Source: a virus. Taken from it: DNA of 64,000 nucleotides. The first letter of the stretch is position 1. The number at the start of each line of letters is the position of its first letter. Where the stretch lies: the IMG/VR virus record IMGVR_UViG_3300032088_002153, positions 17,906 to 81,905 of that record. One strand, written 5' to 3'. The notes under the pieces are model-generated. The model saw nothing but the letters and a program-made list of their open reading frames with translations, searched no databases and was not told the origin of the DNA. The position numbers and the translations under genes were made by a program. This document shows positions 1 through 64,000 of this stretch, one piece after another.

Positions 1-1518
1 GAACTAGAGTTTACAAAGGCTAATATATACAAACACCATATTATGGCAGAGTTAGCTGAAGAGTTTGACGAAGTTATGTATGTAGATATGGATGTTGTTT
101 TCAATACGGAAAAGAACGTGTTTGATGAATTGGATTTGAGTAAAGGCATTCACATCCAAGTACAGACACACGAAGTTACAAGCAAGGACATTGAAGGTGT
201 TATGTTTGAAAATATCGGAAACCGTTCTCCTACATTGAAATACCACATCACAAAAGATTTATTAAATGGTAAAGATAACCACGTAATGAATACTGGTATT
301 ATGATCGCCAAGTCTGAGCATATCAAGAAAATTAAATACATTGAAAGACTTCCTAGCATCATAAAAAGAATACAAGATATGCGAGTTTCTGGAGTAAGCA
401 ATGATGAATACAAATTTCTTAGAATGTATTACTACCCAAACAACGAAAGCATTTTTTCGTATATCATGGAAAGTACAGACATTCCTTATGAGATTATGGA
501 TGAGAGATGGCACAAGATCATCAAAGATACCCCGCAACCATTGGATTGGGATAACATTGAGATTGCGCATTTCATAGGTAAAAAGTTTAGCACGTTCTTC
601 CAAGATAAGACAAAGTTAATATATTCTATTTACATTGAAATACCCGATGAACACTTAGATAATCCAAGAGGACCTAAAGACGATCCTGTAAACAAAAGCA
701 AGCGAACTAAAGAAAGGCTGGCTGCATATAAAGATAAGCTGTACGACAACCATCTTGAATATGCACATGCTCAAAAGGCAACTTATATTCACTTTGGCAG
801 AGATGATAGATACGAAAAGTTTCGTGCTAGGTTTCCCGATTTGTCAGAATATGATATAATCAATTTATATAAGGTATATCTTTTAGATTACATGACGCAC
901 TATTATGATTTAGTATTGTACGTGGACTTTGATGTTTGGTTTGATAAATTCGAAGTTAACACCTTTGATTGGTTAATGGGTGAGCATCTGCTTTGTTGTG
1001 ATGCAGCTAACGCTGAAAATTCTGGCGTAAAACTTTGGGATGCATTATATCTTAAAAACTATGATAAAGACTTTAGGTCACCAGAAGCCAAGTATTGGAA
1101 CTGCCATGCAATGTTATCTGAAGAAGATGTTGAGCCTGACAATTATGTTTTCAATACAGGTATTATGATGGCAAGTAAAAAGGTTATGGAACAGTTAGAT
1201 TACTTTTCTGATATAGATGAAACCCTTGCTATGATGAAAGAACTAAAGGAAGACTCCATATATCCACCACAAGTGCAAGAATCATTTGGGTACGACAATG
1301 AAACAATCATGGCGTACAAAGTTAAAATGAATAATGTGTTTGTGCAAAGATTATCTCAGACGTGGCATCTTAAACATATGAGCGAAAAAATTCAAGCGTT
1401 TGATAAAAATACAAATGAATATGAAATTAGTAAACAAAAACTAAAAGCAGAAATGGCTGAACACAATACAGTAATGGTTCACATGATTTCTAAGAACTTT
1501 GGATTACTGGTCGAGTAA
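1..1518 (+). CDS. Tandem-domain glycosyltransferase (5' end outside window)
   Basis: The frame is open from base 1, and the first in-frame Met at 43 lies inside a conserved helix-strand unit, so the true start is upstream of the window. Two GT-A-like units are visible: the first has YVDMDVV just after the Met and NTGIMIA about 85 residues later; the second has YVDFDVW near residue 292 and FNTGIMM near residue 369. The DxD pairs are the usual metal/nucleotide-sugar ligands of GT8-like enzymes. The repetition suggests internal duplication. The acceptor is unknown; phage glycosyltransferases modify DNA, virion proteins or surface glycan. Its last 29 bases overlap the end of the convergent gene on the other strand. 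Confidence 0.75.
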   Translation, partial: ELEFTKANIYKHHIMAELAEEFDEVMYVDMDVVFNTEKNVFDELDLSKGIHIQVQTHEVTSKDIEGVMFENIGNRSPTLKYHITKDLLNGKDNHVMNTGIMIAKSEHIKKIKYIERLPSIIKRIQDMRVSGVSNDEYKFLRMYYYPNNESIFSYIMESTDIPYEIMDERWHKIIKDTPQPLDWDNIEIAHFIGKKFSTFFQDKTKLIYSIYIEIPDEHLDNPRGPKDDPVNKSKRTKERLAAYKDKLYDNHLEYAHAQKATYIHFGRDDRYEKFRARFPDLSEYDIINLYKVYLLDYMTHYYDLVLYVDFDVWFDKFEVNTFDWLMGEHLLCCDAANAENSGVKLWDALYLKNYDKDFRSPEAKYWNCHAMLSEEDVEPDNYVFNTGIMMASKKVMEQLDYFSDIDETLAMMKELKEDSIYPPQVQESFGYDNETIMAYKVKMNNVFVQRLSQTWHLKHMSEKIQAFDKNTNEYEISKQKLKAEMAEHNTVMVHMISKNFGLLVE

Positions 1519-2362
1519 GTGGACTCCAAGGAGTATAATGTCCTTTTATACTATTCTTATAACTATCATCCTGCTTCATAAGATGTAATGTTAAACCAAT
1601 CTTAGAACCCTCAAATTCGGTTGGCGCATGCAGCACTGATGTATCTTGTACGATTGCATGGCAATGTTCCCACGGAAATATATTTTCAATACTTAACCCA
1701 TCGTATACAGATAAAGGAATATGTTTAGGCATGATTTCTTTCAACTTATGTACGTCTCTATTACCAACATCAATATTATCCACTCCATAATATGAGTAGT
1801 TCATATGCTTAATCACGTTATGGTAATTTGCAAAGGAAGCTATTTCCCTTCCCTTCATAAACATAGTTGCATGTCCACGATACCTTTGATGGAACGTTAC
1901 ATAAGTGCCGGGACCATTAATTTCTAGTGGTATAATAATATCTTTGTATGGTCTGTAACCATCTAAGTGCGTAACGGCGTCGGTATGTAAACCATATGGC
2001 TTTACAGCTTTAAACATTTGATCGCCAACACTCATAGGATCATCGCCAGCTATATCCGAATAGAATATTGTATCCTCACCAAACTCTTCATATATTTTTG
2101 GTCTGATAATATCTGATATTTCTTTGATAAGCATTGGATATACTATTCTATAAATATGTTCGTTAATTATTTCGCCATTTGTATTAAAGTGGTAATCCCA
2201 TGCACATAGTAATTGTTCTCTTTCCGTGTCTGTTATGAAATCATGAATTACATAGGAAGGCTCGTTTTGATCTTTGAACATCTTAACGTTTGGGTTATGT
2301 ATAATGTCCATAGTTCTGAGTTCATCATCAGAAAAAGGTCTATCAGTTCTGTATATATTCAT
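1490..2362 (-). CDS. 2OG-Fe(II) oxygenase-like protein (last gene of minus operon)
   Basis: This is a 290-residue protein with a double-stranded beta-helix signature: HTD at residues 126-128 (two iron ligands) and a distal His at 245 (VLHAPTEFEG). The usual 2OG-anchoring Arg about ten residues after the distal His is a Lys (254). It is longer than its neighbours. Its start overlaps the previous gene by 20 nt, so it is translated as part of the same operon. The substrate is unknown. The family call rests on motif spacing only. Confidence 0.6.
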   Translation of the reverse strand: MNIYRTDRPFSDDELRTMDIIHNPNVKMFKDQNEPSYVIHDFITDTEREQLLCAWDYHFNTNGEIINEHIYRIVYPMLIKEISDIIRPKIYEEFGEDTIFYSDIAGDDPMSVGDQMFKAVKPYGLHTDAVTHLDGYRPYKDIIIPLEINGPGTYVTFHQRYRGHATMFMKGREIASFANYHNVIKHMNYSYYGVDNIDVGNRDVHKLKEIMPKHIPLSVYDGLSIENIFPWEHCHAIVQDTSVLHAPTEFEGSKIGLTLHLMKQDDSYKNSIKGHYTPWSPLTRPVIQSS

Positions 2363-2822
2363 TAGGTATTGCCTCTATTACTTCTTGCCAAGTTTCTCTC
2401 ATTACAAATTTCATCTGCAGCCTTTCATACGGTACTGGGTCAACCCAATGTCTTATATCGCCATTGTTAATTGCCATTGCTTCGTAAGGTACGTTGCCTA
2501 CACCTTCAATACCTATAACTGGCGTTTGATCCATTAAGTTTATTTGTATAGATGTAACATGATCTTCATCATAGTGTATAGGTATGTCGTTATTAGTTTC
2601 TAACCAATAAAACCTTGGTCTATTATCAAACTGTTGAATATTCAAAGCCTCTGCTACTTCATTTATATTAGGGTCCTCACCTTGTTGCGGATAAGTCTGC
2701 CACCATTTATCTACTTGGTCAAACTGTTTCCACTGATACCAGCGTCCGGTATTTCGCCATGCCTCTGCTACTTCTCTAAAGCGCGGTTTATCTATTTTAA
2801 AGTTAAGATGTAGTAAATTCAT
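2343..2822 (-). CDS. 2OG-Fe(II) oxygenase-like protein
   Basis: This 159-residue protein has HYD at 83-85, a distal His at 125 (RHWVDP) and Arg 134, the H-x-D...H...R order of 2OG-Fe(II) dioxygenases. The N-terminal 70 residues are rich in Trp and Arg and are not recognised. It overlaps both neighbours by 20 nt. The substrate cannot be read from the sequence; aspartyl/asparaginyl-hydroxylase-like folds are the closest visual match. Confidence 0.6.
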   Translation of the reverse strand: MNLLHLNFKIDKPRFREVAEAWRNTGRWYQWKQFDQVDKWWQTYPQQGEDPNINEVAEALNIQQFDNRPRFYWLETNNDIPIHYDEDHVTSIQINLMDQTPVIGIEGVGNVPYEAMAINNGDIRHWVDPVPYERLQMKFVMRETWQEVIEAIPNEYIQN

Positions 2823-3246
2823 ATTCAGATAATTCGTTAAAAATTTCTATTGCTTCATTAATTGGTTCTTGGAATGATATATTGATACTATACCTAGTAT
2901 GTTCGTTATTAAATACAGCATGCCTAGATTGAGTATTCAACAACATTACACCACTAAACGTTTCATCCTCAAAAGAGCAGGGTGCATAATGGCCAGATAG
3001 CGGATAGCTTAGTGCAGCGTTTCGTTTACCATCAACATGCCAATCCATAACGTCGTGTGGTTCTAACTTTATGAGTGCAACATTACGATTTGCAAATTTT
3101 AATCCTGTTTGATAATAATACATTCCCATACGATTACCTGATACTGTGGATTGATATGGTGTCCACTCTTTAACACTTTCAGCCATGTTTAAAAAATCGT
3201 TGTGACGCTCTTCCGATAAAAACCGTGGCAATTCATAATAATTCAT
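2803..3246 (-). CDS. 2OG-Fe(II) oxygenase, Asp/Asn-hydroxylase-like
   Basis: This compact 147-residue protein shows a clear motif set: DWHVDG (His 70, Asp 72), distal His 109 (SRHAVFNN) and Arg 118 (TRYSINISF). The distance between the two His residues (39) is similar to that in its neighbours (about 40-50), consistent with one shared fold. It overlaps the upstream gene by 4 nt (ATGA type), showing translational coupling. The substrate is unknown. Confidence 0.7.
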   Translation of the reverse strand: MNYYELPRFLSEERHNDFLNMAESVKEWTPYQSTVSGNRMGMYYYQTGLKFANRNVALIKLEPHDVMDWHVDGKRNAALSYPLSGHYAPCSFEDETFSGVMLLNTQSRHAVFNNEHTRYSINISFQEPINEAIEIFNELSEYEFTTS

Positions 3247-3962
3247 TTGTAAAATCCTTTAAATATTCTAAATATTTCTTGGTGACCTTTTGCATTAGGG
3301 TGTCTATCTTGTTTGCTAATCATACAATCCCCTTGCATTAATTCTTCAAAACAACAACCGCCATATTGCCAGTGAAAAGGCCAACCAAACATATTGCCTT
3401 TTCTCTTGTGTATCATATTAAAGTAATTAGAGTCTAACATATCATATACATCTTTGTTTTCAACAAGTGGATATATCATTTGAAACACAATAAGTTCTAT
3501 ATTTTTGTGTGAACATAAATCCATTAATACATATAATTGAAATAGAGTTTCTTCTACAAGGCATTTTTTAGTATTATCATCAAATGGAATAATATTAAAA
3601 TAATCGTCGTGTCTATTTGTCCATTTTTGATGTTTGGCTTTTTGTTCTTCAGACACGTCATTATCCCATACAACATTTTTGTTTGTGTTTGGATTAAAAC
3701 GATTGTCACCGGGAGTAGAAAATCTATACCACTGAGATAAGGCTATAATACATCTAGTAGTATTACATGTATATATTTGTTTTATTGCTCTCTTTATTAT
3801 TTCTACATTACCGAGAGCATCTCCATAAACGTTAACAACGTCCCAGTCATAATAATCTTGTAATAACTCATCCCACTTTGGATATGATGTGTCGTAGCTG
3901 GGGTGGATCCTTGGAAAATAATTTCTGTTAGACCAACTGCAGCCAGACAGTATTGTTTTCAT
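3243..3962 (-). CDS. SGNH/GDSL-hydrolase-like protein, paralogue A
   Basis: The 239-residue protein begins with the block I-like motif SGCSWS and ends with HPNAKGHQEI, which resembles the catalytic Asp/His block of SGNH hydrolases. A second gene at 49854-50666 shares both blocks and the phrase YDTSYPKW, so the two are paralogues in distant operons. SGNH enzymes remove or transfer acyl groups on glycans or lipids. Here the first block has Cys-Ser-Trp in place of the usual GDS, so activity is uncertain. It lies inside the oxygenase operon with 4-nt overlaps on both sides. Confidence 0.6.
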   Translation of the reverse strand: MKTILSGCSWSNRNYFPRIHPSYDTSYPKWDELLQDYYDWDVVNVYGDALGNVEIIKRAIKQIYTCNTTRCIIALSQWYRFSTPGDNRFNPNTNKNVVWDNDVSEEQKAKHQKWTNRHDDYFNIIPFDDNTKKCLVEETLFQLYVLMDLCSHKNIELIVFQMIYPLVENKDVYDMLDSNYFNMIHKRKGNMFGWPFHWQYGGCCFEELMQGDCMISKQDRHPNAKGHQEIFRIFKGFYK

Positions 3963-4453
3963 AACATAGTGCCGACGATATGAGTTCGAGATGATGTAGA
4001 AGCATTAACAAATGTGTGAATGTTTGTTGTGTCTACCTCATAAACACTGCCATCTGCCGGCAGCCTAAAGATTTCATCGTTCATAACAAAGAAGTTATTA
4101 TCGTTGGTTTCAATTGGTATATGTATTCTTTTAGTAAAGTCTTTGTGATAAGTATAACATGTTTTACCATTCAATATCATAACCCTACTATATGCCAGAT
4201 TGTATTTTCCTAACAAAGAGTTGATATATGGCAATGCAAAATGAAACTCAACCAAGTCTTTGGCTGTTACTTTCGTTTGTCTTTCCCAAGCGTTAGTTTG
4301 GTTTGTTGCAGGTACTATATGTTTAAATACACTATCTTCAACACGTTCACCTTGAAGTGCGTAAGTCGTTTCATGGTGAATAAGAGATAACTCACTCTTA
4401 ATTTTTTCGAGATCAACTGTATCAATTACTCTATAATAAGATTGTCTATCCAT
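3959..4453 (-). CDS. 2OG-Fe(II) oxygenase, Asp/Asn-hydroxylase-like
   Basis: This 164-residue protein has TYHKDF (His 103, Asp 105) followed by RIHIPIETN, a distal His at 146 (NIHTFVN) and Arg 156 (SSRTHIVG). The phrase HIPI(E/T)T is shared with the oxygenase at 5389-6192, so these two are closer relatives. It sits in the same overlapping operon. The target is not known. Confidence 0.7.
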   Translation of the reverse strand: MDRQSYYRVIDTVDLEKIKSELSLIHHETTYALQGERVEDSVFKHIVPATNQTNAWERQTKVTAKDLVEFHFALPYINSLLGKYNLAYSRVMILNGKTCYTYHKDFTKRIHIPIETNDNNFFVMNDEIFRLPADGSVYEVDTTNIHTFVNASTSSRTHIVGTML

Positions 4454-4890
4454 GCTTGTTCGCTCACTGTAAAATCATTTGGATGGTTAATTGTTATAGC
4501 GGTTTGTGTACCCGTAATTCCAGAAACGGAATTTTTAACGTGCGAGTCAATAAGATACCATTCTCCTGCTACCGCTGTAATAGAAGACGTAACATTATCG
4601 TCAGCATCGTGAGCATGTAATATTGTGCCTACAGGATCAATAATATATAATATTCTCCAACGCGACTCCGTTGTAAAAATTCTACTATTTTTAGTCGAGT
4701 CTGACTCCTGATAACGAGTGTGTGAGTTATTTAAAATCTCTTCTAATATTTGTTCGTCTACTAAAGTTGATGTTGCGTCTGCAAGAGTCCAAGCAGTGTA
4801 ATTGATAATTGAACTATCGTATTCAATTTCTAGTGCGTTGTGGATTGGCGAAGGCATTGTCAACTGTGGTAAGTTTAGTTTTTTAATCAT
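4426..4890 (-). CDS. Possible degenerate 2OG-oxygenase-fold protein
   Basis: This 154-residue protein sits between two recognisable oxygenases. It contains HAHD at 92-95, an equivalent His at 117 (IDSHVKNS) and Gln 129 where the family has Arg. The spacing fits a beta-helix iron site but the conserved residues are weaker, so it may be inactive or bind something else. It overlaps the downstream gene by 28 nt and the upstream gene by 4 nt. The oxygenase relationship is inference from context and spacing. Confidence 0.4.
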   Translation of the reverse strand: MIKKLNLPQLTMPSPIHNALEIEYDSSIINYTAWTLADATSTLVDEQILEEILNNSHTRYQESDSTKNSRIFTTESRWRILYIIDPVGTILHAHDADDNVTSSITAVAGEWYLIDSHVKNSVSGITGTQTAITINHPNDFTVSEQAWIDNLIIE

Positions 4891-5396
4891 TTTAGTTCTC
4901 CGAATGGAATGTCGTGTATCCCCATATGAAAGACGATACGTTCCTTTGTTGGCGATTTTACACCATGTGGTTTTTTTGTATTAAGTACAGTCATAGTGTC
5001 ATATACTATGGAGTCTCTTGTATTCCCATCATCAACATATAATTCGCCAGTATTTTCAGTTACAGGTATCAGTACTGAGCAATGGCTCTTAACATCAACA
5101 TGAACTGGCAACTCTCCACCTTCTAATACTCTAAAAAAGTTGCAGCGGAATTCTTGTGGTCTTATTTCAAATGTATTCCATATTTTTTTAATCAACCTAA
5201 GAAGTGGTCTATTAAAATTGTGTATCTCTTGGACAAAGAACTTATTCATTTCTTTACCACCTGTTGCATCACTAACATATTCTGAATATAGTTTATTACT
5301 ATCAGTCCATTCGCCAGTTATATAATTTTCCCAAAAAATTGGGTCAACCTTATAATCAGTTTTTATAAACGAATCATTTATCCATGTTTTATCCAT
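4887..5396 (-). CDS. 2OG-Fe(II) oxygenase-like protein
   Basis: The start is placed at the ATG at 5396 because AGGAAGA lies just upstream; an in-frame ATG at 5414 would add six residues. From 5396 the motifs are PVHVDV (His 99, Asp 101), distal His 144 (KKPHGVKS) and Arg 153 (ERIVFHMG). These residues match the iron-ligand and 2OG-binding positions of the family. It is part of the minus-strand operon. Confidence 0.65.
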   Translation of the reverse strand: MDKTWINDSFIKTDYKVDPIFWENYITGEWTDSNKLYSEYVSDATGGKEMNKFFVQEIHNFNRPLLRLIKKIWNTFEIRPQEFRCNFFRVLEGGELPVHVDVKSHCSVLIPVTENTGELYVDDGNTRDSIVYDTMTVLNTKKPHGVKSPTKERIVFHMGIHDIPFGELK

Positions 5397-6192
5397 GTAA
5401 ATCTTCCTGACCATTAACTGATATAATAATATGTGACCGTGTAGTCGTACCTTTGTTCCAAGCCGAATGCCTCATGCCTTGATTTAAAAACCATAGTGAT
5501 CCCGGTTCCATAGTCTGATTTATTTTGCTCCCATCTTTATCTATACAATAAAATCCACAATCATCATTTGTTGTAATCGGAATATGAAACCGAATAGAAT
5601 AATCGGTATTGTAGTCGATATGCTCGGCAACGTAAGCACCCGGCTCCATAATAGCAATTCTTGCTCGTGTAACTTCGCCTTTAAATGTTTTAAGTATTTC
5701 TTCTAGGTAAGTACCCTTTACCCAGTCTTTCATTAAGTTATAGTGTCTTTCGTCAAGTCTGCTTTTAGGTATTTTCTTTTCATAGATCCGATCTTCTTCA
5801 TCTGGGTTATATTTAGTCAAAGCAATTTGTTTATATGGCGATCCATTAACTTCAAATTTGCCCTTGCCATCTTCTACAATATAATCTTCAAATGGCTTTA
5901 CATAGTTTCTAAAATCCCAAGCCATACGCTTGCCGCCTAAACCATTACGGAACTCAGACTCTTTTACATCGTTATCTTGTAAGAATTGATAAGCATCTTC
6001 AATCGTATCAAATTTTAAACCAAAAGCTTTTTGTAACTTTGCAGTTTTTCCACCAACCAAATCTCCATAGCCATCTTTTTCTTTTAGATCGTCATTTTCT
6101 GGTGGCATATTACGAACAACTTCAATGATTTTGTTTACATCAAAATGTGCGTCAAGTTTTTGAAACGGTGGCAGCTCATATCTGGTTTTCAT
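5389..6192 (-). CDS. 2OG-Fe(II) oxygenase, aspartyl/asparaginyl-hydroxylase-like
   Basis: This 267-residue protein has a C-terminal catalytic domain with AEHIDYN (His 191, Asp 193), RFHIPITTN, a distal His 242 (MRHSAWN) and Arg 252 (TRSHIIIS). This is the best textbook match in the cluster to the aspartyl/asparaginyl beta-hydroxylase type. The N-terminal 170 residues are charged and unassigned and may bind the substrate. It couples by 4 nt to the acetyltransferase-like gene upstream. Confidence 0.75.
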   Translation of the reverse strand: MKTRYELPPFQKLDAHFDVNKIIEVVRNMPPENDDLKEKDGYGDLVGGKTAKLQKAFGLKFDTIEDAYQFLQDNDVKESEFRNGLGGKRMAWDFRNYVKPFEDYIVEDGKGKFEVNGSPYKQIALTKYNPDEEDRIYEKKIPKSRLDERHYNLMKDWVKGTYLEEILKTFKGEVTRARIAIMEPGAYVAEHIDYNTDYSIRFHIPITTNDDCGFYCIDKDGSKINQTMEPGSLWFLNQGMRHSAWNKGTTTRSHIIISVNGQEDLHG

Positions 6193-6689
6193 AATTTTGT
6201 ATATCCTTTATATTGTAAACATCCATGACCGTCACAAACCGGTACTTTTTTGTCATGCATATTCCATATTGTATCTGTTGCCATTGCCACTTTATTTATA
6301 AACTCTCGCAGCATTCTGGGGTTCTTTTCTCTACTTATAAATGCTGAGGTATATCCGAGTTCTTTTGCAAACTTCAATTGGTCTTTGACGGTAGATATAA
6401 TATGGCTTCTTGCTAATTCTCTACCGATACGACGCAATTCTTGGTTTTCCCAATAACGATTTAATATTCTAACCTCACCCTTTTCATAATATTCAGGTCT
6501 ATGCCATATAGAACTAAATCCTACTATGTCGTCACCATTTTGTAATATAGAAACACAATCAAACTGAAACCAGTCTAAACCATCATAATTAACGTGGTCA
6601 TAAACTGTTTCTGATAATTGCTTTATAATGTCTGGCCTATCCTCTGGAAAAAAGCTAGTGACACTACATTCTGAGTTCAGCAATGTCAT
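6189..6689 (-). CDS. GNAT-like acyltransferase (putative)
   Basis: The middle of this roughly 166-residue protein (VSILQNGDDIVGFSSIW, then GEVRILNRYW, then GYTSAFISREKNPRML) reads like the strand-turn-helix core of a GNAT fold, but the classical acyl-CoA loop R/Q-x-x-G-x-G/A is not clear. The ATG at 6689 is preferred over one at 6716, which would overlap the upstream gene by 53 nt. It is the only enzyme of its type in the oxygenase operon and could acylate the same substrate. Confidence 0.45.
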   Translation of the reverse strand: MTLLNSECSVTSFFPEDRPDIIKQLSETVYDHVNYDGLDWFQFDCVSILQNGDDIVGFSSIWHRPEYYEKGEVRILNRYWENQELRRIGRELARSHIISTVKDQLKFAKELGYTSAFISREKNPRMLREFINKVAMATDTIWNMHDKKVPVCDGHGCLQYKGYTKL

Positions 6690-7242
6690 TCCAAAACTCT
6701 TTCTTTTTCTTACCATGAATTAATAAATGTAATCTGTCTTCGTCAGAATTATTTTCAACCATATGTGGGTAGTGAATGTTTAAAACAAACGATGAACCGG
6801 GATGATATGGTATTTCCTCGCCGTCCATAACAAACTTACTTCCCTTTGGATATGTAATAGATATATTAAGAGGATCCAGCCAGTTATGTTCTGGCACATC
6901 GATATGTTCAGCAATATAACCACCAGATTTTATAACAAGATATCTGACATCATCTATTCGAGCATATGGTAATGAATTAACAAAATCCATAGTTGCAGGA
7001 CATTGCTTTCCAATTTCAGTAATATCCTTTTTAACTTTACGTCCATATTCCCAATGACTATTTGTATTATCAGAAGCAGTGCCGTATAATGTCATAGCAA
7101 ACCAATCCTTATGACCATCCTCTGGTCTATGGATAACTAATGAGTCTTTGACTAATTTATATTCTTTTTCTATATCAGAGCAAGGAACATTAAAGTTCAT
7201 CTTTACCCAATGTGCGTCGCTACTTCTTTGCATGATGATCAC
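6664..7242 (-). CDS. 2OG-Fe(II) oxygenase, Asp/Asn-hydroxylase-like
   Basis: The start is taken as the GTG at 7242, six bases after an AAGGAA ribosome site; an ATG at 7233 is the alternative. The motifs are AEHIDVP (His 113, Asp 115 from the GTG), distal His 160 (YPHMVEN) and Arg 170. The phrase GGYIAEHID closely resembles GAYVAEHID in the gene at 5389-6192, indicating common descent. It is the second gene of the operon, after the desaturase. Confidence 0.7.
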   Translation of the reverse strand: MIIMQRSSDAHWVKMNFNVPCSDIEKEYKLVKDSLVIHRPEDGHKDWFAMTLYGTASDNTNSHWEYGRKVKKDITEIGKQCPATMDFVNSLPYARIDDVRYLVIKSGGYIAEHIDVPEHNWLDPLNISITYPKGSKFVMDGEEIPYHPGSSFVLNIHYPHMVENNSDEDRLHLLIHGKKKKEFWNDIAELRM

Positions 7243-7774
7243 TGTGGTTTCCTTCAAGTGGAGCAAAAAGATTTATCCACCATTTATTAGCAGCGCCGTC
7301 GTCGTCATGGGCTACCAAATTAAGTAATCCGTAAAACATAAATGATGTTGGTAATAATAACAATAAATGCGCAAGAAATATTGGATTTATATAAAATGCT
7401 ACAATATAAGTTATAACGAAAACATATAATTTGTTCTTGTGGAAAAACATAACTCTTGGATTATTATAAAGGTCCTTTACAAACTTTCTTGGTATATGCT
7501 TTACTTTATAAGCCGAAAACAATACTTCATACCATTTTTTATATTTTGGACTATGTGGGTCTAACTCAGTATCAGCATATGCGTGATGCATACGATGAAC
7601 GCCTGCCCAACTTAATGGCGAACATGCGCTAGCCATAGTACCTAAGTAAATTATTATTGTTTCTAATATTGGGTGCAGTTTTATTTGCTTATGTGATATG
7701 CATCTATGATACCCTATCGTCAACCCGACAGCAGCTACTACCCAATAAAATATATAAAAGTGGACTAAAAACAT
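7220..7774 (-). CDS. Fatty-acid desaturase (acyl-CoA/lipid delta-9 type)
   Basis: This integral membrane di-iron enzyme of 184 residues has the three histidine boxes of the family: HRCISH near the N terminus, HRMHH in the middle and HSDHH near the C terminus, with hydrophobic segments between. Such enzymes insert a double bond into acyl chains and use electrons from a ferredoxin or cytochrome. The ATG at 7774 follows GAGG; a TTG at 7786 would add four residues. It is shorter than cellular delta-9 desaturases. It is first in the minus-strand operon, just downstream of a late promoter. Desaturases also occur in marine cyanophages. Confidence 0.85.
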   Translation of the reverse strand: MFLVHFYIFYWVVAAVGLTIGYHRCISHKQIKLHPILETIIIYLGTMASACSPLSWAGVHRMHHAYADTELDPHSPKYKKWYEVLFSAYKVKHIPRKFVKDLYNNPRVMFFHKNKLYVFVITYIVAFYINPIFLAHLLLLLPTSFMFYGLLNLVAHDDDGAANKWWINLFAPLEGNHSDHHAKK

Positions 7775-7801
7775 AATTATCCTCAAAAACCTTCATGTAG
7801 T

Positions 7802-7841: not shown

Positions 7842-7925
7842 AGATTTATCTACTAAACAATAATAATAGTTGTTATAATGGCTGTAACAAAATAGTAACA
7901 GTATTTTTATTAAAATGGAAATCTA

Positions 7926-7954
7926 TTGACATTTTAGCTCTACTGTATTATATA
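7926..7954 (+). promoter_or_regulatory. Sigma70-type promoter P2 at the tmRNA 5' end
   Basis: TTGACA (7926-7931), a 17-nt spacer and TATATA (7949-7954). Initiation near 7961 would put the CCA end of the acceptor piece about 60 nt into the transcript, a plausible length for the acceptor piece of a two-piece tmRNA. Confidence 0.7.
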
Positions 7955-7960
7955 TAACTA

Positions 7961-8245
7961 GTGAACGTTGAAATGACGTGAATACGGATCGGACCTCGGG
8001 GCAGTACCGAGCATCTCCACCAAATTTACTCTGTAGGGTAAAAACTGATAATTTACTTTGTAGAGTAAATTTGATGGGGATGAACAAGGATCGACGGACG
8101 GAATAGCTTAATGGAGTTCATCGGGTGATCGCGTATAGATCAATTAAACTAAATGCAAATGAAAATTTCGCACCATCTGGATTTGCTCTAGCAGCATAAT
8201 CACAGGGGGGTTGTCCACTTACCTAGCAACAGAAAAGTGGTACTT
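7961..8245 (+). ncRNA. ssrA: Circularly permuted (two-piece) tmRNA, ssrA
   Basis: The gene order is acceptor piece first, coding piece second, as in alphaproteobacteria. The acceptor 3' strand CATCTCC-ACCA (8012-8022) pairs fully with GGGGATG (8076-8082), with one G-U. T-stem CTCGG/CCGAG lies at 7995-7999/8007-8011. The 53-nt intervening segment carries a perfect 10-bp inverted repeat (8022-8031/8063-8072) that continues the acceptor stem and would present both ends for processing. GGATCGACGGACGG follows the 5' end, close to the usual GATTCGACGGG. The tag frame starts at GCA 8155 and reads ANENFAPSGFALAA-stop (TAA 8197-8199). GTTG/CAAC interleaved with CCACTT/AAGTGG (8210-8240) forms an H-type pseudoknot. 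Oddity: the T-loop GGCAGTA lacks the normal TTC. Outer ends are estimated. Confidence 0.9.
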
Positions 8246-8274
8246 AATAAAACTATTACAAGGAAAAAGGTAAC

Positions 8275-9063
8275 ATGGGTAAATTCTTATTAACAACGGC
8301 ACTAACTTTGGTAGCCGGTGCAGCGATTGCACAGGAAGTAACCGAAGCACCAGTAGGATTAACTGGTAAAATTGAAACAGTAATTGCTGAAGGTGCTGGT
8401 GGAGATTGGGGTGCAACGTCATCTTTTGATCTTGGCGTATCTGCAGGATCTGGCTTAGCATCAGGTTCTATGTCTTTCGTCGTTGACTCAAATAACGATT
8501 TGGCTTTAGACGAATATTCAATCGGTACATCAATCGGTGGAACTGAATTGTCATTTGGAGACCAAGGCAATATTTGGATTGACACAGAAAACGGTTCTTC
8601 TATTGAAGAAGCAAAGATTGCTGATGAAAGCATTCAAGCAACTATCGCAGGTGTATCAGTAGCAGCCGGCTTAAACATGGATGATTTAACTGACATTCAA
8701 AACGTACAAGCTGGTTACGGTATTCCATTAGGAATTGCTAACATCAACGCAGTAGGTGACTATAACCTAAACAGTGAATCATGGATTGTAGCAGGTCGCG
8801 CAGACACAGACGGTATGTTGGAAAATGTACGTATCGGTGGTGCAGTATCATACGGTTCAATTTCAGAAAAACTTGGCTTTGAAGCTGACGCTACAGTAGG
8901 ACCATTAACTGGTTATATTGGCGGTGACCAAGATGATCTAATGAAAGATGCAGGCGTTAATGGTGAAGTTGCTGTTGCAGGTATCGATGTAGAAACTAAA
9001 TTGAACTATAACTTTGACAGTGAAGAATTAACACCATCAGTTGGTTTAAGTTTCAACTTCTAA
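8275..9063 (+). CDS. Outer-membrane porin-like beta-barrel protein A
   Basis: This 262-residue protein has a signal peptide (basic MGK, hydrophobic core, cleavage near AIAQ), then alternating short hydrophobic/polar strands rich in Gly, and a final SFNF with C-terminal Phe, the signal for BAM-mediated outer-membrane insertion. It resembles small alphaproteobacterial porins in style. It lies directly after the tmRNA with AAGGAAAAAGG as ribosome site and ends before a strong terminator. A phage copy could change nutrient uptake or block receptors against other phages; neither is shown. Confidence 0.7.
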   Translation: MGKFLLTTALTLVAGAAIAQEVTEAPVGLTGKIETVIAEGAGGDWGATSSFDLGVSAGSGLASGSMSFVVDSNNDLALDEYSIGTSIGGTELSFGDQGNIWIDTENGSSIEEAKIADESIQATIAGVSVAAGLNMDDLTDIQNVQAGYGIPLGIANINAVGDYNLNSESWIVAGRADTDGMLENVRIGGAVSYGSISEKLGFEADATVGPLTGYIGGDQDDLMKDAGVNGEVAVAGIDVETKLNYNFDSEELTPSVGLSFNF

Positions 9064-9155: not shown

Positions 9156-9698
9156 ATGACTAATAAATTGAAGCAACTCACATGGGCACATCACCAAGCA
9201 GCTGAACGTAGAAAATTTGCTAAGCAACTAATTAGTGGTGGCATAGACCCATTCGTATATTATAAGTTTTTAAATTGTCAGTACTTAGTATACAGACTAT
9301 TAGAAGACATTGTAATTATTCCACCAAACCTTACTGCAATTTATAGAGCTCCGCGTATTCTTCAGGATATGGATGAGTTATCAGAAATTTATGGATTTGA
9401 CGATATTGATAGTTATCCAGAATCAGTTGGCAGATGTATGACACACATGCAAGGATTGGCTGATGCAGACGATAACGATAGTCTATTAGCACATATGTAT
9501 GTAAGGCATTTTGGTGAACTTCATGGTGGACAAATCATTAAAGCTAAGACACCCGGAAAAGGGATTATGTATGAATTTGAAGGTGACACAAAAGTACTTA
9601 TCGAAGAATTTAGAAAACTATTGCACGATGGTATGGAAGTAGAAGCTAAGAAATGCTTTGATTTCGCATCAGAATTATTTGACGAATTATCCAAATAA
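9156..9698 (+). CDS. hemO: Heme oxygenase (biliverdin-forming)
   Basis: Heme oxygenases open heme to biliverdin, CO and Fe2+ using electrons from a reductant such as ferredoxin. This 180-residue all-helical protein is a normal bacterial length. His 13 in HHQAAE matches the proximal heme ligand motif H-x-x-A-E, and MYVRHFGELHGGQ matches the distal helix with its flexible glycines. It precedes a bilin reductase gene (9929), so biliverdin is the likely intermediate, not only iron release. It has its own late promoter, while the bilin reductase has a host-type promoter. It is clearly of the HO family; whether it belongs to the HemO or Ho1 subgroup is not resolved. Confidence 0.9.
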   Translation: MTNKLKQLTWAHHQAAERRKFAKQLISGGIDPFVYYKFLNCQYLVYRLLEDIVIIPPNLTAIYRAPRILQDMDELSEIYGFDDIDSYPESVGRCMTHMQGLADADDNDSLLAHMYVRHFGELHGGQIIKAKTPGKGIMYEFEGDTKVLIEEFRKLLHDGMEVEAKKCFDFASELFDELSK

Positions 9699-15780: not shown

Positions 15781-17019
15781 ATGAAGCGTTTTCAGGAATT
15801 TGTCACAGAAGCGAAACGCGGTGGCGCAAAGAAAAACCAAGTAAGTGCCACTGATATGGAAGCGGTTATCGTTGTTGCTTTCAACGGTGGTTGGGACAAA
15901 GCCAAAGATACATACGGTTTAAAACAAAATACATATGAAATTGGCGCTCCAATTGCAGAAAAAATTGCTGATGATATTAGAAAAACAACCAAGGCTTCTG
16001 CGAACTCACTAATACATTTTGGTTCTGGCGCAGGTCAGTTAAATCCAAAATGGTTAGGTTCCAATGGTACTCCTAAAACTGATTTATATTCAACAGACGG
16101 TATAAACATATCACTTAAACAAAAAGGTGGTTCTCAAGTTATGTCTGGATATAAAGAAGAAACAATTTCTACATTCTATGCAGCGATGGATAGTATGGGA
16201 GATAAAGCTCCTAAAGAAATTAATAAATTAGTAGCACAATTGGATCCTGTTCTCAAAAAGATTACTGTACCCGGAAATGTTAATACAATTATTAACTCAA
16301 TCAAAGGTAAATCAATGCCTAAAGGTGTTAAAGCACAAGTAGGTAATAGTAAACGTGTAATGGACATTAAGTTTGATAAAAGAGAATATGCTGCCAAGCA
16401 AGCAGAAATTGTCGACTGGAAAAACTCAATGAAGGAACTCAACCCAGTGTTTAGAGAATTCTTTGAGGACAACCAAGAGTTTAGACGATACTTTGTATAT
16501 GAAGCAGCTACTGGTGATTTTAAATTTGCCCCGGATAAATATGCTAACTCAAATTGGATGGTAGAGTTTGACCCTGCGTCTGGTACTAATAATAACATTG
16601 TCCAACTATCATTAGGCAATAACATACCGGCACCTTTTATTGATAAGCTAGCTAAAAAAGTTCAAGTTAGAATATCTCCAAAAACACCAACAGGTTCAAA
16701 AGTATCTGCGCAAGGTACATCATCAACTGTTGGATCGTTTAGATTAACAGTGGCTGAAAACAAAGGCGGGTTTGATACATTTGAAACAATGATGATAAGA
16801 GAACAAGCAAAGTTTACTGAGTCATTATTAACTGAAGATGTGTTAACTGAAGCAGGATTGTTTAGTAAACTTAAAACATGGTTATCTAAATTATATTACA
16901 AAGTAATTAAAAAGATTAAACAAATTGCTAAACTAGGATACGAAGCGTTATTATCGTTTTTCCAATTTGAAGTAAGCAAAGTTGATACAAAAGGCCTACA
17001 ACAGTTTGGATTTAAATAA
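15781..17019 (+). CDS. Capsid-targeted internal protein, unknown function
   Basis: The N terminus MKRFQEFVTEA closely resembles the T4 internal-protein capsid-targeting sequence MKTYQEFIAEA, with Glu at position 10 and a hydrophobic residue at position 8, as required for gp21 prohead protease cleavage. The 412-residue body has a PKTDLYSTDGINISLKQ segment that vaguely resembles a PD-(D/E)xK nuclease core, which is not secure. The C-terminal 60 residues contain a basic amphipathic stretch. It is the first gene of a late unit and sits 1 nt before another protein with the same signal. Confidence 0.75.
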   Translation: MKRFQEFVTEAKRGGAKKNQVSATDMEAVIVVAFNGGWDKAKDTYGLKQNTYEIGAPIAEKIADDIRKTTKASANSLIHFGSGAGQLNPKWLGSNGTPKTDLYSTDGINISLKQKGGSQVMSGYKEETISTFYAAMDSMGDKAPKEINKLVAQLDPVLKKITVPGNVNTIINSIKGKSMPKGVKAQVGNSKRVMDIKFDKREYAAKQAEIVDWKNSMKELNPVFREFFEDNQEFRRYFVYEAATGDFKFAPDKYANSNWMVEFDPASGTNNNIVQLSLGNNIPAPFIDKLAKKVQVRISPKTPTGSKVSAQGTSSTVGSFRLTVAENKGGFDTFETMMIREQAKFTESLLTEDVLTEAGLFSKLKTWLSKLYYKVIKKIKQIAKLGYEALLSFFQFEVSKVDTKGLQQFGFK

Positions 17020-19515: not shown

Positions 19516-19791
19516 ATGGCACACACGATTAATAGTAATTCATCTATTGCTTCAGTATTTGCATACAAAGTAGTAACATTCTTCGAAAGAATTGGCACGG
19601 CGATGGCTAAACGAGCAGAGCGTCGCGAAACATTCAAAACACTCCATAGATTAACAGATAGAGAATTAAACGACATTGGCATTAGCCGTGGCGATATTCG
19701 TTCTATTGCTAATGACACTTGGGAAGATACTCGTAAACGCGATTCATTACCATATGTATCAGTTAACCCAAATTTAAGAGGATCAGTATAA
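19516..19791 (+). CDS. DUF1127 (YjiS-like) small protein
   Basis: The 91-residue protein has a C-terminal segment ETFKTLHRLTDRELNDIGI followed by SRGDIRSIA, the DUF1127 signature common in alphaproteobacteria, where such Arg-rich proteins bind RNA and influence RNA turnover or phosphate and carbon responses. The N-terminal half has a short helix and a basic region. It heads the cassette; a second mini-copy is at 20443. It supports an alphaproteobacterial host. Confidence 0.8.
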   Translation: MAHTINSNSSIASVFAYKVVTFFERIGTAMAKRAERRETFKTLHRLTDRELNDIGISRGDIRSIANDTWEDTRKRDSLPYVSVNPNLRGSV

Positions 19792-19979
19792 TGGAAATCA
19801 CAGGTGAACAACCAGTAAGAATGCCAAAAATATTTAAACTATTAGCAAAAGGCTTAGTTGCTGTAGGAATGTTCTTATGGGCATTTGGCGAGTCAGCAGG
19901 CAGAGCAAGAGCAGCGAGTGAATTGTTTCGTCAAGGATATGTAGAAGAAGCAAGAAGATTAATGTTGGAGAGTAAATAA
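19791..19979 (+). CDS. Small membrane protein (62 aa)
   Basis: A single hydrophobic helix (about residues 17-35, [17 protein letters not shown]) is followed by an Arg/Glu-rich amphipathic tail ([20 protein letters not shown]). It shares one base with each neighbour, giving tight translational coupling with DUF1127 and the c-subunit gene. The function is unknown; the position suggests it works with the c subunit. Confidence 0.7.
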
Positions 19980-20206
19980 TGACTGGTGATATAGCAACAA
20001 TGGGCGCATTAATTGGCGCAGGATTGGCAACTTTAGGAATGGGTGGAGCGGCTATTGCCGTAGGAATTATAGTCGGAAGTGTGTTAAAAGTAATGCCTAA
20101 AAAGGGTGAAGGCGATCAGGGAACAATGTTTGTAGGTATCGCATTTGCAGAAGCGTTGGGTATCTTTGCATTCTTGGTAGCGTTGCTACTAATGTTTGCT
20201 GTATAA
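19979..20206 (+). CDS. atpE: F0F1 ATP synthase subunit c homologue
   Basis: Subunit c forms the proton-driven rotor ring of F0. This 75-residue hairpin has the normal bacterial length. Helix 1 carries the small-residue pattern [17 protein letters not shown] (13-29), a polar loop around [10 protein letters not shown], and helix 2 reads [20 protein letters not shown] with Glu 58 as the essential carboxylate in the family context A-x-A-E-A-L-G-I-F. The usual loop R-Q/N-P is altered to V-M-P. It overlaps both neighbours by 1 nt. No other ATP synthase subunit is in the window, so the product would have to mix into or replace the host ring, or act as a decoy. Confidence 0.8.
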
Positions 20207-20427
20207 TGGTTGGTGATCAGCATATAGAAATATCAGCACAGGTAGTGCAGAAGTTAGGTTTTTATATGTTCGTCGTTATGACTTCATTAATATTAATATG
20301 TATAGCGTTTGGATTTTACGCCGTGATTGACAAATACAAACAACCAAATTGGAAAGAAGTATGTATCGCAAAAGGCGGTGTACCAGTACAGTTAGAGAAA
20401 TCATTCTTTGACTGCAAAAAGATGTAA
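20206..20427 (+). CDS. Small membrane protein with C-terminal Cys pair
   Basis: The 73-residue protein has one transmembrane helix (about 18-41, FYMFVVMTSLILICIAFGF) and a short outer domain containing VCIAKGGVPV and FFDCKKM. The two Cys of this domain could form a disulfide if periplasmic. It is in the same 1-nt-overlap chain as the c subunit. The family is not recognised. Confidence 0.65.
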   Translation: MVGDQHIEISAQVVQKLGFYMFVVMTSLILICIAFGFYAVIDKYKQPNWKEVCIAKGGVPVQLEKSFFDCKKM

Positions 20428-20585: not shown

Positions 20586-21008
20586 ATGAAAACACTTTAT
20601 TTTTATTTGGCACTATTCGCTGCAATTTTTACAGTGTCAGCAGCATCAGCAGACGTAACAATCGAAATGTTAAATAAGCGCGACGATGGCGCTAAGATGG
20701 TCTACTCACAAGATATTACACGTATCGAAGTAGGTGAGATTATCACATGGGTACCAACATCAAAAGGTCATAACGTAGAATTTATTGCAGGGCCAGACGG
20801 TTGGAAGAAACCAAAGAAATCAAAATTAAATAAAGTAGTTGAAATCCAGTTTAACACACCGGGTGTATATCTATATCAATGTTCACCACATAAGAGCATG
20901 GGTATGATTGCTATTGTAGTTGTAGGTGATGGAGATAATGATATTTCAAAAGCCAAAGTAAAGGGCAAATCAAAGAAAAAGCTTAAGGCTTTGTTAGGAG
21001 AACTATGA
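20586..21008 (+). CDS. Pseudoazurin-like periplasmic cupredoxin
   Basis: Pseudoazurins are small blue-copper electron carriers of the periplasm that feed nitrite and nitrous-oxide reductases or other terminal acceptors. The protein has a signal peptide (cleavage after SAASA, residue 22) and the copper site His 62 (KGHNVEF), Cys 99, His 102 and Met 107 (CSPHKSMGM); the Cys-to-Met spacing equals that of pseudoazurin and VPTSKGHNVE is almost its consensus. A Lys-rich C-terminal tail of about 20 residues is unusual. It lies 8 bases after the mini-DUF1127 gene in the membrane-protein cassette. Confidence 0.88.
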   Translation: MKTLYFYLALFAAIFTVSAASADVTIEMLNKRDDGAKMVYSQDITRIEVGEIITWVPTSKGHNVEFIAGPDGWKKPKKSKLNKVVEIQFNTPGVYLYQCSPHKSMGMIAIVVVGDGDNDISKAKVKGKSKKKLKALLGEL

Positions 21009-21067
21009 TAGATCCAGATCACACATTCATCAAACCTAAAGGTGAAAAGAAAAAAGGCGGCAAGTAA
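21005..21067 (+). CDS. Possible 20-aa basic peptide
   Basis: An ATGA overlap with the pseudoazurin stop starts a 20-residue frame ending KKKGGK, whose TAA overlaps the next ATG. The double overlap is the only support; it could be a translational bridge. Confidence 0.3.
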   Translation: MIDPDHTFIKPKGEKKKGGK

Positions 21068-21174
21068 TGCACGGTGATAGAGGTAACATTAAAATTGTTT
21101 GGTTAATGTTATTCTTGTGCGTATTCTTACACGTTGGATTAATACCAGTTTGGATGTGGTATTTAGGTTTATAA
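21067..21174 (+). CDS. Single-span membrane microprotein (35 aa)
   Basis: The ATG overlaps the preceding TAA. After MHGDRGNIK comes one hydrophobic helix (IVWLMLFLCVFLHVGLIPVW) ending YLGL. It resembles the size and style of small subunits that stabilise respiratory complexes, but no family is recognised. It is the last gene of the cassette before a terminator. Confidence 0.55.
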   Translation: MHGDRGNIKIVWLMLFLCVFLHVGLIPVWMWYLGL

Positions 21175-21190
21175 TAACTTCAAAAAAACT

Positions 21191-21198
21191 TATAAATA
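21191..21198 (+). promoter_or_regulatory. Late promoter TATAAATA for the methyltransferase/GT unit
   Basis: A perfect TATAAATA whose expected start (about 21204) falls inside the 5' arm of the terminator at 21202-21229, so late RNA would carry a broken terminator stem. Confidence 0.7.
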
Positions 21199-21201
21199 AA
21201 G

Positions 21202-21229
21202 GGTAGGCATTAAGTTGTCTACCTTTTTT
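21202..21229 (+). terminator. Rho-independent terminator ending the bioenergetic cassette
   Basis: GGTAGGCA (21202-21209) pairs with TGTCTACC (21216-21223), 8 bp with one G-U and a 6-nt loop, followed by six T. It overlaps the initiation point of the late promoter just upstream. Confidence 0.85.
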
Positions 21230-21248
21230 GATTCAACGGAGATATACT

Positions 21249-39367: not shown

Positions 39368-40564
39368 ATGAACTATCTGAAATACTTTGAAAAAACAGTT
39401 AAAGAATTTAAAGCCGATGGCAGATATAGAGTCTTTAACGATATACTTAGAGAGCGAGGGTCTTTCCCTCGTTCAATATGGTATGGTAAGTATGCTCCAA
39501 AAAATATAGTGAACTGGTGTTCTAATGATTATTTAGGTATGGGTCAAAATCCATATGTTATTGATTCAATGCATACAGCTTTGGATCAGACAGGTGCTGG
39601 ATCAGGCGGTACTCGTAATATAGGTGGAACATCACATTACCATGTTACATTAGAGCGAGAGATAGCATCTTTACATAAAACTCAATCGGCATTAATATTT
39701 ACAAGCGCATATGTTGCTAATGAATGGTCACTTATAGCCTTATCTAAAATTATACCAAATATATGTTTTGTTTCTGATAGCAAAAACCATGCTTCAATTA
39801 TTATGGGTATGGTAAATAGTAGAGCAGAAAAACTAATATTTGAACATAACGATATGTCTGATTTGGAAACAAAACTCAAACTGGCGCTTAAACGTAAACT
39901 AAACCCCGTAATTGTATTTGAGTCAATATACTCGATGGACGGAGATGTATCACCTATAAAATCAATAGTTGATCTGGCATATAAATATAAGGCAATGACT
40001 TATATAGACGAGGTCCATGCAGTAGGTCTTTATGGTAAAACAGGCGCTGGGTATTGTGAAGAGCTAAACTTATATTCTGATAGTATCGACATTGTGAACG
40101 GTACATTGGGAAAAGCTTACGGCGTCCAAGGAGGTTACATTGCAGGTAATCAAACTATTATTGACGCTATTAGGTCGACGGCAAGTGGTTTCATATTCAC
40201 TACCAGTATGTCACCAGTTATATGCGCTGGGGCACTCGCCAGTATAAATTATCTAAAGGATCACAACTCCCTTAGAGAAAAACATCAAGAACGTGTTGCC
40301 AAACTCAAAGGCATGCTTATTGATGCAGGAATAAATATCCATCCAAACGCTTGTACTCACATTATACCAGTGATGGTCAATGATGCGTTTAAATGTAAAG
40401 AAGCTTCGGATAGATTAATAAACGAATTCGGTATATACATACAACCAATTAATTCTCCAACAGTGGAACAAGGGACCGAGCGATTACGTATCGCACCTAC
40501 TCCATACCATACCGATATAATGATGGTAGAATTAGTTGAAGCGCTGAAAGAAGTATTGAAATGA
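39368..40564 (+). CDS. hemA: 5-aminolevulinate synthase (Shemin pathway)
   Basis: This PLP enzyme condenses glycine and succinyl-CoA to 5-aminolevulinate, the first step of tetrapyrrole synthesis. The 398-residue protein has [19 protein letters not shown] (79-97), [10 protein letters not shown], the PLP-contact [12 protein letters not shown] (Asp 214) and the Schiff-base Lys 249 in NGTLGKAYG, all matching ALAS more closely than other alpha-oxoamine synthases. ALAS in bacteria is characteristic of alphaproteobacteria. It is 3 nt behind nrdA, so it is made in the early/middle phase, and it overlaps the DUF454 frame. With hemO and the bilin reductase it forms an open tetrapyrrole route completed by host enzymes. 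Confidence 0.92.
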
Positions 40565-62085: not shown

Positions 62086-64000
62086 TGGCAATTACTAAAC
62101 GCAGCGATAAGGGTAGTGCTTTAACATATAACGAAATGGACGATAACTTTGATGCTATCGCTCCACGTACAAGCGAAACTGGTGCAATTCAAATTCCCGC
62201 TGGTACAACCGGTGAAAGACCAACAGGTCAAGAAGGTCATTTACGTTTTAATACCGCATCTAAACAATTTGAAGGATTTCAAGGAACAACTTGGTCAAGC
62301 ATTGGCGGTGCTGGTGGCGGTGGCGGTGGAAGCCCAGGGATCCAAGGTGTACAAGGTACTGACGGAAACGCTGGTCCTGCAGGTAATCCCGGTTTGCAAG
62401 GTTCAACTGGAGACCCAGGGCTTGAAGGAGATCCGGGTCCGCAGGGTATTACTGGTTCAACAGGTGACGAAGGACAACAAGGTGACCCAGGGATCCAAGG
62501 TCCAGCTGGTTCTGTCCAAGGTTTACAAGGTACTTCCGGATTTCAAGGTACTACTGGTTTAGGTATTCAAGGTACTACCGGTTCAGGCTCTGATGGAGAC
62601 CCAGGTGCTCAAGGTATTCAGGGTGCTGCTGGATCTACACAAGGTGTTCAAGGTTTAAGAGGTCCAGACGGTTCTGATGGATTTGGTAACCAAGGTACGA
62701 CTGGTGCTCAGGGACCAGCAGGATCTATTCAAGGTTTACAAGGTACGATTGGTCCAGCAGGATTTGGCGCACAAGGTATTCAGGGTATCCAAGGTATTGA
62801 AGGTGAAGTAGGCGAAGATGGTCCTGCAGGTTTGCAAGGTGCTGATGGAGCAGGTGCTCAAGGTACTGATGGCTTCCAAGGTTTTCAAGGTACTGATGGC
62901 TTTCAAGGTAACGATGGTTTTGGGCTGCAAGGTTTACAAGGTCAACTCGGTAACGATGGACCACAAGGTGTACAAGGCGATTTAGGTTTACAAGGTCAAA
63001 CAGGTACAGGCGCCGATGGTGTTCAAGGTCCTATTGGTGTGCAAGGTTTTGCTGGAGATGTTCAAGGTGTGCAAGGTTCAACTGGTGCAGGTCAACAAGG
63101 TACACAAGGTATTCTTGGTCCTATTGGTATTCAAGGAAACTTTGGTCCATCGCTTCAAGGTATTCAAGGTCAAGCTGGTTCAACACAAGGTTTTACAGGA
63201 ACAATAGGTCCTGATGGTATTCAAGGTATTCAAGGTACACAAGGTTTATCATTACAAGGTGAGCAAGGTTTGCAGGGTCAACCCGGAACTGATGCAGCTG
63301 GTTTCCAAGGTACTCAAGGTCTATTAGGTAATCAAGGTACACAAGGTTCTCAAGGACCAACTGCATTCCAAGGTATTCAAGGATTTGGTGGACCGGGTGC
63401 GGTTGGTGTACAAGGTGTCCAAGGTAACCAAGGTTTTGTTGGTGAACAAGGTGACGACGGCGGAGCAGGACCTATAGGCCCACAAGGTGTCCAAGGTGTA
63501 AGAGGACCAATCGGTGATACTGGTGATGCAGGTTCAGACGGTGCAGGTGGTTTACAAGGTCTCCAAGGTACAGACGGAACTCTTAGTAATATAGTAGATG
63601 ATACATCACCACAGCTTGGTGGTAACTTAGATATTAACTCAAAGAAATTCCTTAATGTAAACCCAATTAGTTTTGTTGAAGATGTTGCTAACCCATTAGA
63701 TATTTCTACTGATGCAAATATTCAAATTAACCTTGAAGCTACAGATGGTTCTGCATATCAAACTAGGGCAACTATGTATTCTCAAAACAACTTACTGAGA
63801 ATTACATCGCACGATAGAACTAATAACCCTGCACAAAATTATCAGCAATTAGCAATCAGACCAATTCTTAATAGTAGCACTTTACAATTATCAAGTGTTG
63901 TGGCTGGTGCAGCAACAAACTATGAAGTTACTACTGAATATAACGCAATGACTCATATTGCGCAAAACATGGAATACCTAAGTAATCCAGTAAGATTTAA
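62085..64000 (+). CDS. Collagen-like tail fibre protein (3' end outside window)
   Basis: The ATG at 62085 overlaps the previous stop (TAATG) and the frame stays open to the window end (at least 638 residues). The N terminus (KRSDKGSALTYNEMDDNFDA) is the attachment pattern of phage fibre proteins. From about residue 80 to 500 it is G-x-y collagen repeat with very frequent G-I/V/F/L-Q, expected to form a trimeric rod. A beta-rich distal domain starts near DDTSPQLGGNLDINS. It probably binds the host receptor. Confidence 0.9.
   Translation, partial: MAITKRSDKGSALTYNEMDDNFDAIAPRTSETGAIQIPAGTTGERPTGQEGHLRFNTASKQFEGFQGTTWSSIGGAGGGGGGSPGIQGVQGTDGNAGPAGNPGLQGSTGDPGLEGDPGPQGITGSTGDEGQQGDPGIQGPAGSVQGLQGTSGFQGTTGLGIQGTTGSGSDGDPGAQGIQGAAGSTQGVQGLRGPDGSDGFGNQGTTGAQGPAGSIQGLQGTIGPAGFGAQGIQGIQGIEGEVGEDGPAGLQGADGAGAQGTDGFQGFQGTDGFQGNDGFGLQGLQGQLGNDGPQGVQGDLGLQGQTGTGADGVQGPIGVQGFAGDVQGVQGSTGAGQQGTQGILGPIGIQGNFGPSLQGIQGQAGSTQGFTGTIGPDGIQGIQGTQGLSLQGEQGLQGQPGTDAAGFQGTQGLLGNQGTQGSQGPTAFQGIQGFGGPGAVGVQGVQGNQGFVGEQGDDGGAGPIGPQGVQGVRGPIGDTGDAGSDGAGGLQGLQGTDGTLSNIVDDTSPQLGGNLDINSKKFLNVNPISFVEDVANPLDISTDANIQINLEATDGSAYQTRATMYSQNNLLRITSHDRTNNPAQNYQQLAIRPILNSSTLQLSSVVAGAATNYEVTTEYNAMTHIAQNMEYLSNPVRF
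62328..63580 (+). repeat. Collagen-like G-x-y coding repeat
   Basis: A degenerate 9-18-bp repeat dominated by GGTxxxCAAGGT units codes for G-x-Q-G triplets. It is a natural site for slippage and recombination, so fibre length may vary between relatives. Confidence 0.85.

Follow-up and report, generated by a model that had tools for sequence, protein, structure and literature searches.

The window analysed here, a 64-kb stretch of DNA out of an 81.9-kb virus record, encodes the T4-type proteins gp59, UvsX and gp41 together with a ribonucleotide reductase, and the phage context of the gene described below is certain. This gene, which encodes a pseudoazurin-type copper protein, lies within a cassette, a run of short genes whose stops and starts overlap or are closely spaced. 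The cassette and the promoter box just after it are composed as follows:

19516-19791, plus strand: DUF1127 protein of 91 aa that opens the cassette (Pfam PF06568, 3.4e-12; a conserved neighbour)
19791-19979, plus strand: small membrane-type protein of 62 aa (no Pfam match; in 44 of 83 loci)
19979-20206, plus strand: homologue of the F0 ATP synthase c-subunit (AtpE), 75 aa (Pfam ATP-synt_C, 1.5e-11)
20206-20427, plus strand: single-TM protein of 73 aa whose tail contains two Cys, almost always adjoining phage AtpE
20443-20577, plus strand: 44-aa protein with an EYRSYCM motif, conserved in the cassette
20586-21008, plus strand: pseudoazurin-type cupredoxin, 140 aa (Pfam, NCBIfam, PDB, alignment and AlphaFold)
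21067-21174, plus strand: single-TM peptide of 35 aa at the cassette end, read from the sequence; its family lies downstream of pseudoazurin in 12 loci
21191-21198, plus strand: T4-type late promoter box TATAAATA, from a motif scan

The start of AtpE overlaps the preceding stop in a TAATG, and the start of the 73-aa protein overlaps the AtpE stop in the same way. The pseudoazurin ORF spans 140 codons, with a Shine-Dalgarno-like AGGATA. Over both strands of the window 17 TATAAATA boxes were found, several directly upstream of genes; since about 8 per strand are expected by chance from the base composition, this count alone is not evidence. A promoter scan across the cassette gave matches no more frequent than chance. 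At about 21204-21231, a hairpin (GGTAG...CTACC) followed by TTTTTT was read by eye and is unscored by the terminator scan.

Elsewhere the window holds further host-like genes, including an ALA-synthase-like PLP enzyme (39368-40564), a heme oxygenase (9156-9698, with a TATAAATA late-promoter box just upstream at 9115), a fatty-acid desaturase (7220-7786) and a DUF454 gene. A permuted tmRNA of alphaproteobacterial type lies at 7906-8290 (tag ANENFAPSGFALAA); two-piece tmRNAs are known from marine T4-like phages (PMC9004378). About ten overlapping short minus-strand genes at 1490-7266 run against the direction of most of the window, and the low-complexity, repetitive ORFs in several frames at 62149-63494 are possibly a collagen-like fibre gene in its true frame. 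Seven plus-strand proteins, starting at 15781, 17020, 26196, 27981, 28337, 28894 and 29581, share similar short leaders (MKRFKxH.., MKSFKxH.., MKRFQEF..), which we take to resemble the T4 capsid-targeting sequence; by this analogy they are perhaps a set packaged into the head.

The copper protein is assigned to its family by several comparisons. Pfam Copper-bind matches the ORF with E 2.9e-14. Among solved structures, pseudoazurins match at E ~1e-22, amicyanin at ~1e-9 and plastocyanin at ~1e-7; the list opens with 22 distinct solved sequences, all of them pseudoazurins except for a blue copper protein that the fold search identifies as a pseudoazurin, and continues with amicyanins and then plastocyanins. 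The nearest relatives are thus electron-transfer cupredoxins, which removes the objection, foreseen in an earlier note on this DNA, that they might be cupredoxins of another function. The profile comparison proposed there likewise favours pseudoazurin, with NCBIfam scores of 96.7 bits for pseudoazurin (TIGR02375), 43.6 for amicyanin (TIGR02657) and 32.5 for plastocyanin (TIGR02656). The latter two are far under the curated cut-offs of 110.2 and 87.85, and the protein is assigned to neither family. The pseudoazurin score is 13 bits short of the equivalog cut-off of 109.85, and the protein is therefore filed in a sister pseudoazurin-like clade and not as an equivalog; against the same profile, other viral copies score 97.6-110.7 and marine cellular copies 90.1-109.9.

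All four type-1 copper ligands are present (H62, C99, H102 and M107), with the C-x2-H-x4-M spacing of pseudoazurin, as had been read earlier. They are invariant in 20 of 20 diverse viral copies and in all 33 viral and cellular copies aligned; a loss of Cys 99 or His 102 in related phages, named beforehand as a sign against the assignment, is nowhere seen among the aligned viral copies. By inspection, the N-terminus resembles a signal peptide (a K, a hydrophobic stretch and ASA directly before D23; putative signal peptide 1-22), and D23 aligns beside the mature start of Achromobacter pseudoazurin (1BQK). The AlphaFold model, built with 33 window and locus sequences, has a mean pLDDT of 90.6 and a C-terminal helix at 128-139. 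Its best 27 PDB matches are all pseudoazurins (rmsd 1.3-2.3); the best matches among the BFVD viral structures, which include a cyanophage plastocyanin, are far weaker than those in the PDB. The Lys-rich tail (8 Lys per 22 residues, net +6) is real, but the suggestion that it is a phage-specific docking element was rejected, as this tail is the usual C-terminal helix of the family and is shared by cellular relatives. Judged from sequence and modelled fold, the viral protein is a predicted pseudoazurin-like electron carrier of the secreted type, belonging to a marine sister clade.

The gene is widespread in viruses. The search in related phage contigs that the earlier note had called for found at least 335 IMG/VR stretches encoding relatives of the window pseudoazurin. 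Our viral locus set comprises 160 pseudoazurin loci with 83 distinct proteins, some contigs having been fetched twice, and a T4-type hallmark gene is found in 71 of the 160 loci within the short flank covered. Identical or 90%+ copies, in the same gene order, recur in many independent contigs. The median pairwise dN/dS (Nei-Gojobori, unsaturated pairs only) amounts to ~0.12 for the mature domain of pseudoazurin and to 0.09 for the phage AtpE; these low ratios, together with the invariant ligands, indicate that the pseudoazurin and c-subunit genes are kept as working proteins. In a phage collection of 50,697 records, the sole pseudoazurin matches are cyanophage plastocyanins, which are weak (phage PetE, 29.7% identity to the window protein, E 1e-3), and the c-subunit and DoxX have no match. 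A pelagiphage version was also sought with a SAR11 pseudoazurin as query; no relatives were found in viral contigs, and the viral type thus differs from the SAR11 type.

The neighbourhood is conserved in part. Within 4 kb, among the 83 distinct proteins, a DoxX-family membrane protein is found near 45, the 62-aa protein near 44, a 71-aa membrane protein and DUF1127 near 37 each, and two other small membrane families near 33 and 28. DoxX lies close to the phage pseudoazurin in lineages other than that of the window (for example L061:6502-6909). The c-subunit and the 73-aa protein co-occur across viral loci, and many viral pseudoazurin loci are without AtpE. A possible identity of the 71-aa neighbour as aa3 oxidase subunit IV was dropped, as it has no Pfam match. 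The pseudoazurin gene is one module of a putative phage respiration cassette, apparently undescribed; the earlier note had passed over its AtpE-like c-subunit, DUF1127 and small membrane proteins.

The phylogeny bears on both the protein type and the host. In a tree of 129 rows, the viral sequences group with marine alphaproteobacterial ones, and two sets of Rhodobacteraceae chromosomal copies, L156, L158 and L159 on the one hand and L157 on the other, fall among the viral rows. A smaller tree, to which classic pseudoazurins were added, separates the classic type from the marine and viral sequences with 100/100 support, again placing L157 with a viral copy and L156, L158 and L159 beside viral rows. 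The viral protein is thus placed in a sister clade, not inside the classic one. L157, the chromosomal pseudoazurin of Rhodobacteraceae MED-G08, has a viral partner in each of the two trees, and transfer from phage to host or from host to phage is a possible explanation.

The window AtpE is 67-69% identical to that of Rhodobacteraceae and at most 50% identical to those of the other alphaproteobacterial genomes searched. This affinity, the type of the tmRNA and the pseudoazurin tree together point to marine Rhodobacteraceae, carrying an aa3 oxidase, as probable hosts, which we infer from sequence relationships and do not put forward as a host assignment. The identity of the tmRNA fixes no host: its strong matches were confined to a bin containing phage contigs, and MED-G08 gave a single short one. 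The species-genome collection contains phage contigs inside bacterial bins, namely L154 and L155 (Rhodobacteraceae Water_Bin34 and Muricauda TMED12); both were rejected as bacterial homologues because phage genes surround them. Water_Bin34 carries several tmRNA-like copies on different contigs. The proposal of a phage-encoded pseudoazurin-type carrier for non-photosynthetic hosts is supported.

That proposal had left respiration and denitrification side by side, and the gene content of the genomes that carry each type of pseudoazurin separates the two. NirK and/or NosZ are present in 10 of 10 sampled genomes with a high-scoring classic pseudoazurin, whereas neither NirK above its cut-off nor NosZ was found in any of 15 sampled genomes with the marine type (Fisher p 3e-7), many of these being incomplete MAGs or SAGs in which single absences are soft. 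The respiratory half of the claim is thus favoured and the denitrification half is not. Subunit I of the aa3 oxidase, CtaD, was found in 4 of 7 Rhodobacteraceae genomes, and CcoN of the cbb3 oxidase in none of these 7; in 8 other marine genomes, CtaD is full length in 7 and a fragment in 1. The simplest reading of this gene content is that the viral pseudoazurin would be a carrier from bc1 to the aa3 oxidase.

We propose the following, with a probability of roughly 55%: the phage protein is an auxiliary periplasmic type-1 copper carrier that passes electrons from bc1 to aa3 and sustains respiration in an infected marine alphaproteobacterium, as part of the respiration cassette. In the infected cell, most likely one of the Rhodobacteraceae, the phage would supply its own soluble periplasmic copper carrier, which would be reduced by the cytochrome bc1 complex and would in turn reduce the aa3 cytochrome c oxidase. 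It would act in parallel with the host cytochrome c, whose renewal would cease after host shut-down, and would thereby keep the respiratory chain going through the lytic cycle; in the window lineage, the same cassette would also deliver an ATP synthase c-subunit. Export, copper loading, the partners, the direction of electron flow and the benefit to the virus are what we infer in this scheme. The energy genes that accompany pseudoazurin (AtpE and DoxX, and in the window the ALA-synthase-like enzyme and the heme oxygenase) are counted for the respiratory reading. The contig yielded no further enzyme of the respiratory chain, and the pseudoazurin would accordingly rely wholly on host partners. 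A pseudoazurin under selection beside a modified c-subunit suggests a virus that tunes host respiration while it multiplies.

The strongest competing explanation starts from the c-subunit. The phage AtpE, modelled as a two-helix hairpin (pLDDT 78.6), retains the Gly-rich helix 1 and the proton-carrying Glu58 of helix 2, and in the window protein PKK-GEGD stands in place of the conserved RNPSAA polar loop. In all full-length phage copies of this family, RNP gives way to PKK or PKN followed by a short and mainly acidic segment, and the loop is 3-5 residues shorter; L150, a more distant viral copy, is likewise without RNP. The R-[NQ]-P polar loop is present as RNP in 8 of 8 cellular c-subunits aligned (RNPSAA in nearly all) and in no full-length viral copy. 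The phage protein scores 65.8 against the AtpE equivalog cut-off of 85, compared with 111.1 for a Rhodobacteraceae c-subunit, and its RNP-less form is conserved in ~38 distinct viral sequences. The polar loop belongs to the structure that joins the c-ring to the central stalk (PMC3542316), and another report calls the delta-c interface critical for the transfer of rotation (PMC2903591); a phage subunit that joined the host ring might thus change coupling.

On this basis the cassette could rewire oxidative phosphorylation: the RNP-less subunit would join the host c-ring and loosen coupling or block assembly, and pseudoazurin, joined in other lineages by DoxX, would sustain electron flow. We regard this as a tentative possibility, clearly behind the carrier reading. 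In its favour, the phage AtpE keeps its Gly-rich packing helix and essential Glu yet loses RNPSAA under strong purifying selection, a conservation not expected of a disabled and unconstrained protein, and it shares the cassette of overlapping genes with pseudoazurin. Against it, the new loop may yet make contact with F1, and the absence of AtpE from many pseudoazurin loci makes the pair separable. The wider form of the idea, that a cassette of T4-like phages of marine heterotrophic Alphaproteobacteria remodels host oxidative phosphorylation and sets the balance of respiration, membrane potential and ATP through pseudoazurin and a c-subunit that enters the ring, is conceivable at about the same low level.

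Two roles outside this respiratory route were also considered. The protein might serve copper handling or protection against redox stress, as a periplasmic copper buffer or as a donor to cytochrome c peroxidase that shields the virocell. Its single-copper fold could serve this purpose, and glutaredoxin and Hsp20 occur at some neighbouring loci; the complete pseudoazurin fold with all type-1 ligands, however, is typical of electron carriers, and no copper-export genes were seen nearby, and we consider this role unlikely. Donation of electrons to NirK or NosZ, which would support denitrification in the infected cell, is less probable still: the pseudoazurins of denitrifiers are the nearest solved relatives, but the marine-clade genomes are devoid of NosZ and of NirK above the cut-off, and the viral copies stand outside the classic clade with full support. 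That the gene was picked up from a host by accident, or joined to the contig in a chimeric assembly, and plays no part in infection is scarcely credible, for although phage contigs do occur in bacterial bins, the recurrence of the same gene order around near-identical copies, the adjacent T4 hallmarks and the low dN/dS of the gene all speak against it.

We return to the carrier reading, in which the phage pseudoazurin sustains respiration, and to its place among known systems. No description of a phage pseudoazurin was found in the literature, within the open-licence papers searched. In the main text of an AMG survey of the global ocean, plastocyanin occurs once, and azurin and ATP synthase do not occur; an older virome study names electron-transport genes, ATP synthase among them, on the basis of virome data that lack the present gene context. 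Novelty lies chiefly in the cassette, and within it most of all in the altered c-subunit, whose replaced coupling loop opens viral action on the rotary ATP synthase to direct test. Viral ALA synthase and heme oxygenase are known as AMGs of aquatic phages, and a pelagiphage-like scaffold carries a desaturase, HemO and AlaS (PMC11480375); the window resembles this scaffold in its ALAS-like enzyme, HemO and desaturase, and azurin, plastocyanin, cupredoxin and ATP synthase are unmentioned in that report.

The closest known counterparts are of three kinds. First, classic pseudoazurin (TIGR02375; Achromobacter 1BQK, Alcaligenes 1PAZ and Sinorhizobium 3TU6) shares with the viral protein the cupredoxin fold, the H-C-H-M ligands in C-x2-H-x4-M spacing, the C-terminal helix and the signal-peptide-like N-terminus. 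The viral type differs in forming a sister clade with scores around the cut-off, in the lack of NirK and NosZ in carrier genomes and in being phage-encoded; a pseudoazurin-like clade is thereby defined apart from the denitrification proteins. Second, the chromosomal copies of marine Alphaproteobacteria (Rhodobacteraceae, SAR11, OCS116 and SAR116) belong to the same clade as the viral ones but, in the copies examined, are not surrounded by the phage cassette. Third, the cyanophage plastocyanin PetE (phrog_515) is likewise a phage-encoded type-1 copper carrier, at ~30% identity and weak E-values. PetE feeds the host electron-transport chain and serves photosystem I, which is absent from non-photosynthetic hosts. 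Cyanophages are documented to take over the electron-transport chain of photosynthesis; with a widespread pseudoazurin under selection, phages of heterotrophs would do the same for respiration, and the effect would reach a large part of the carbon remineralised in the sea.
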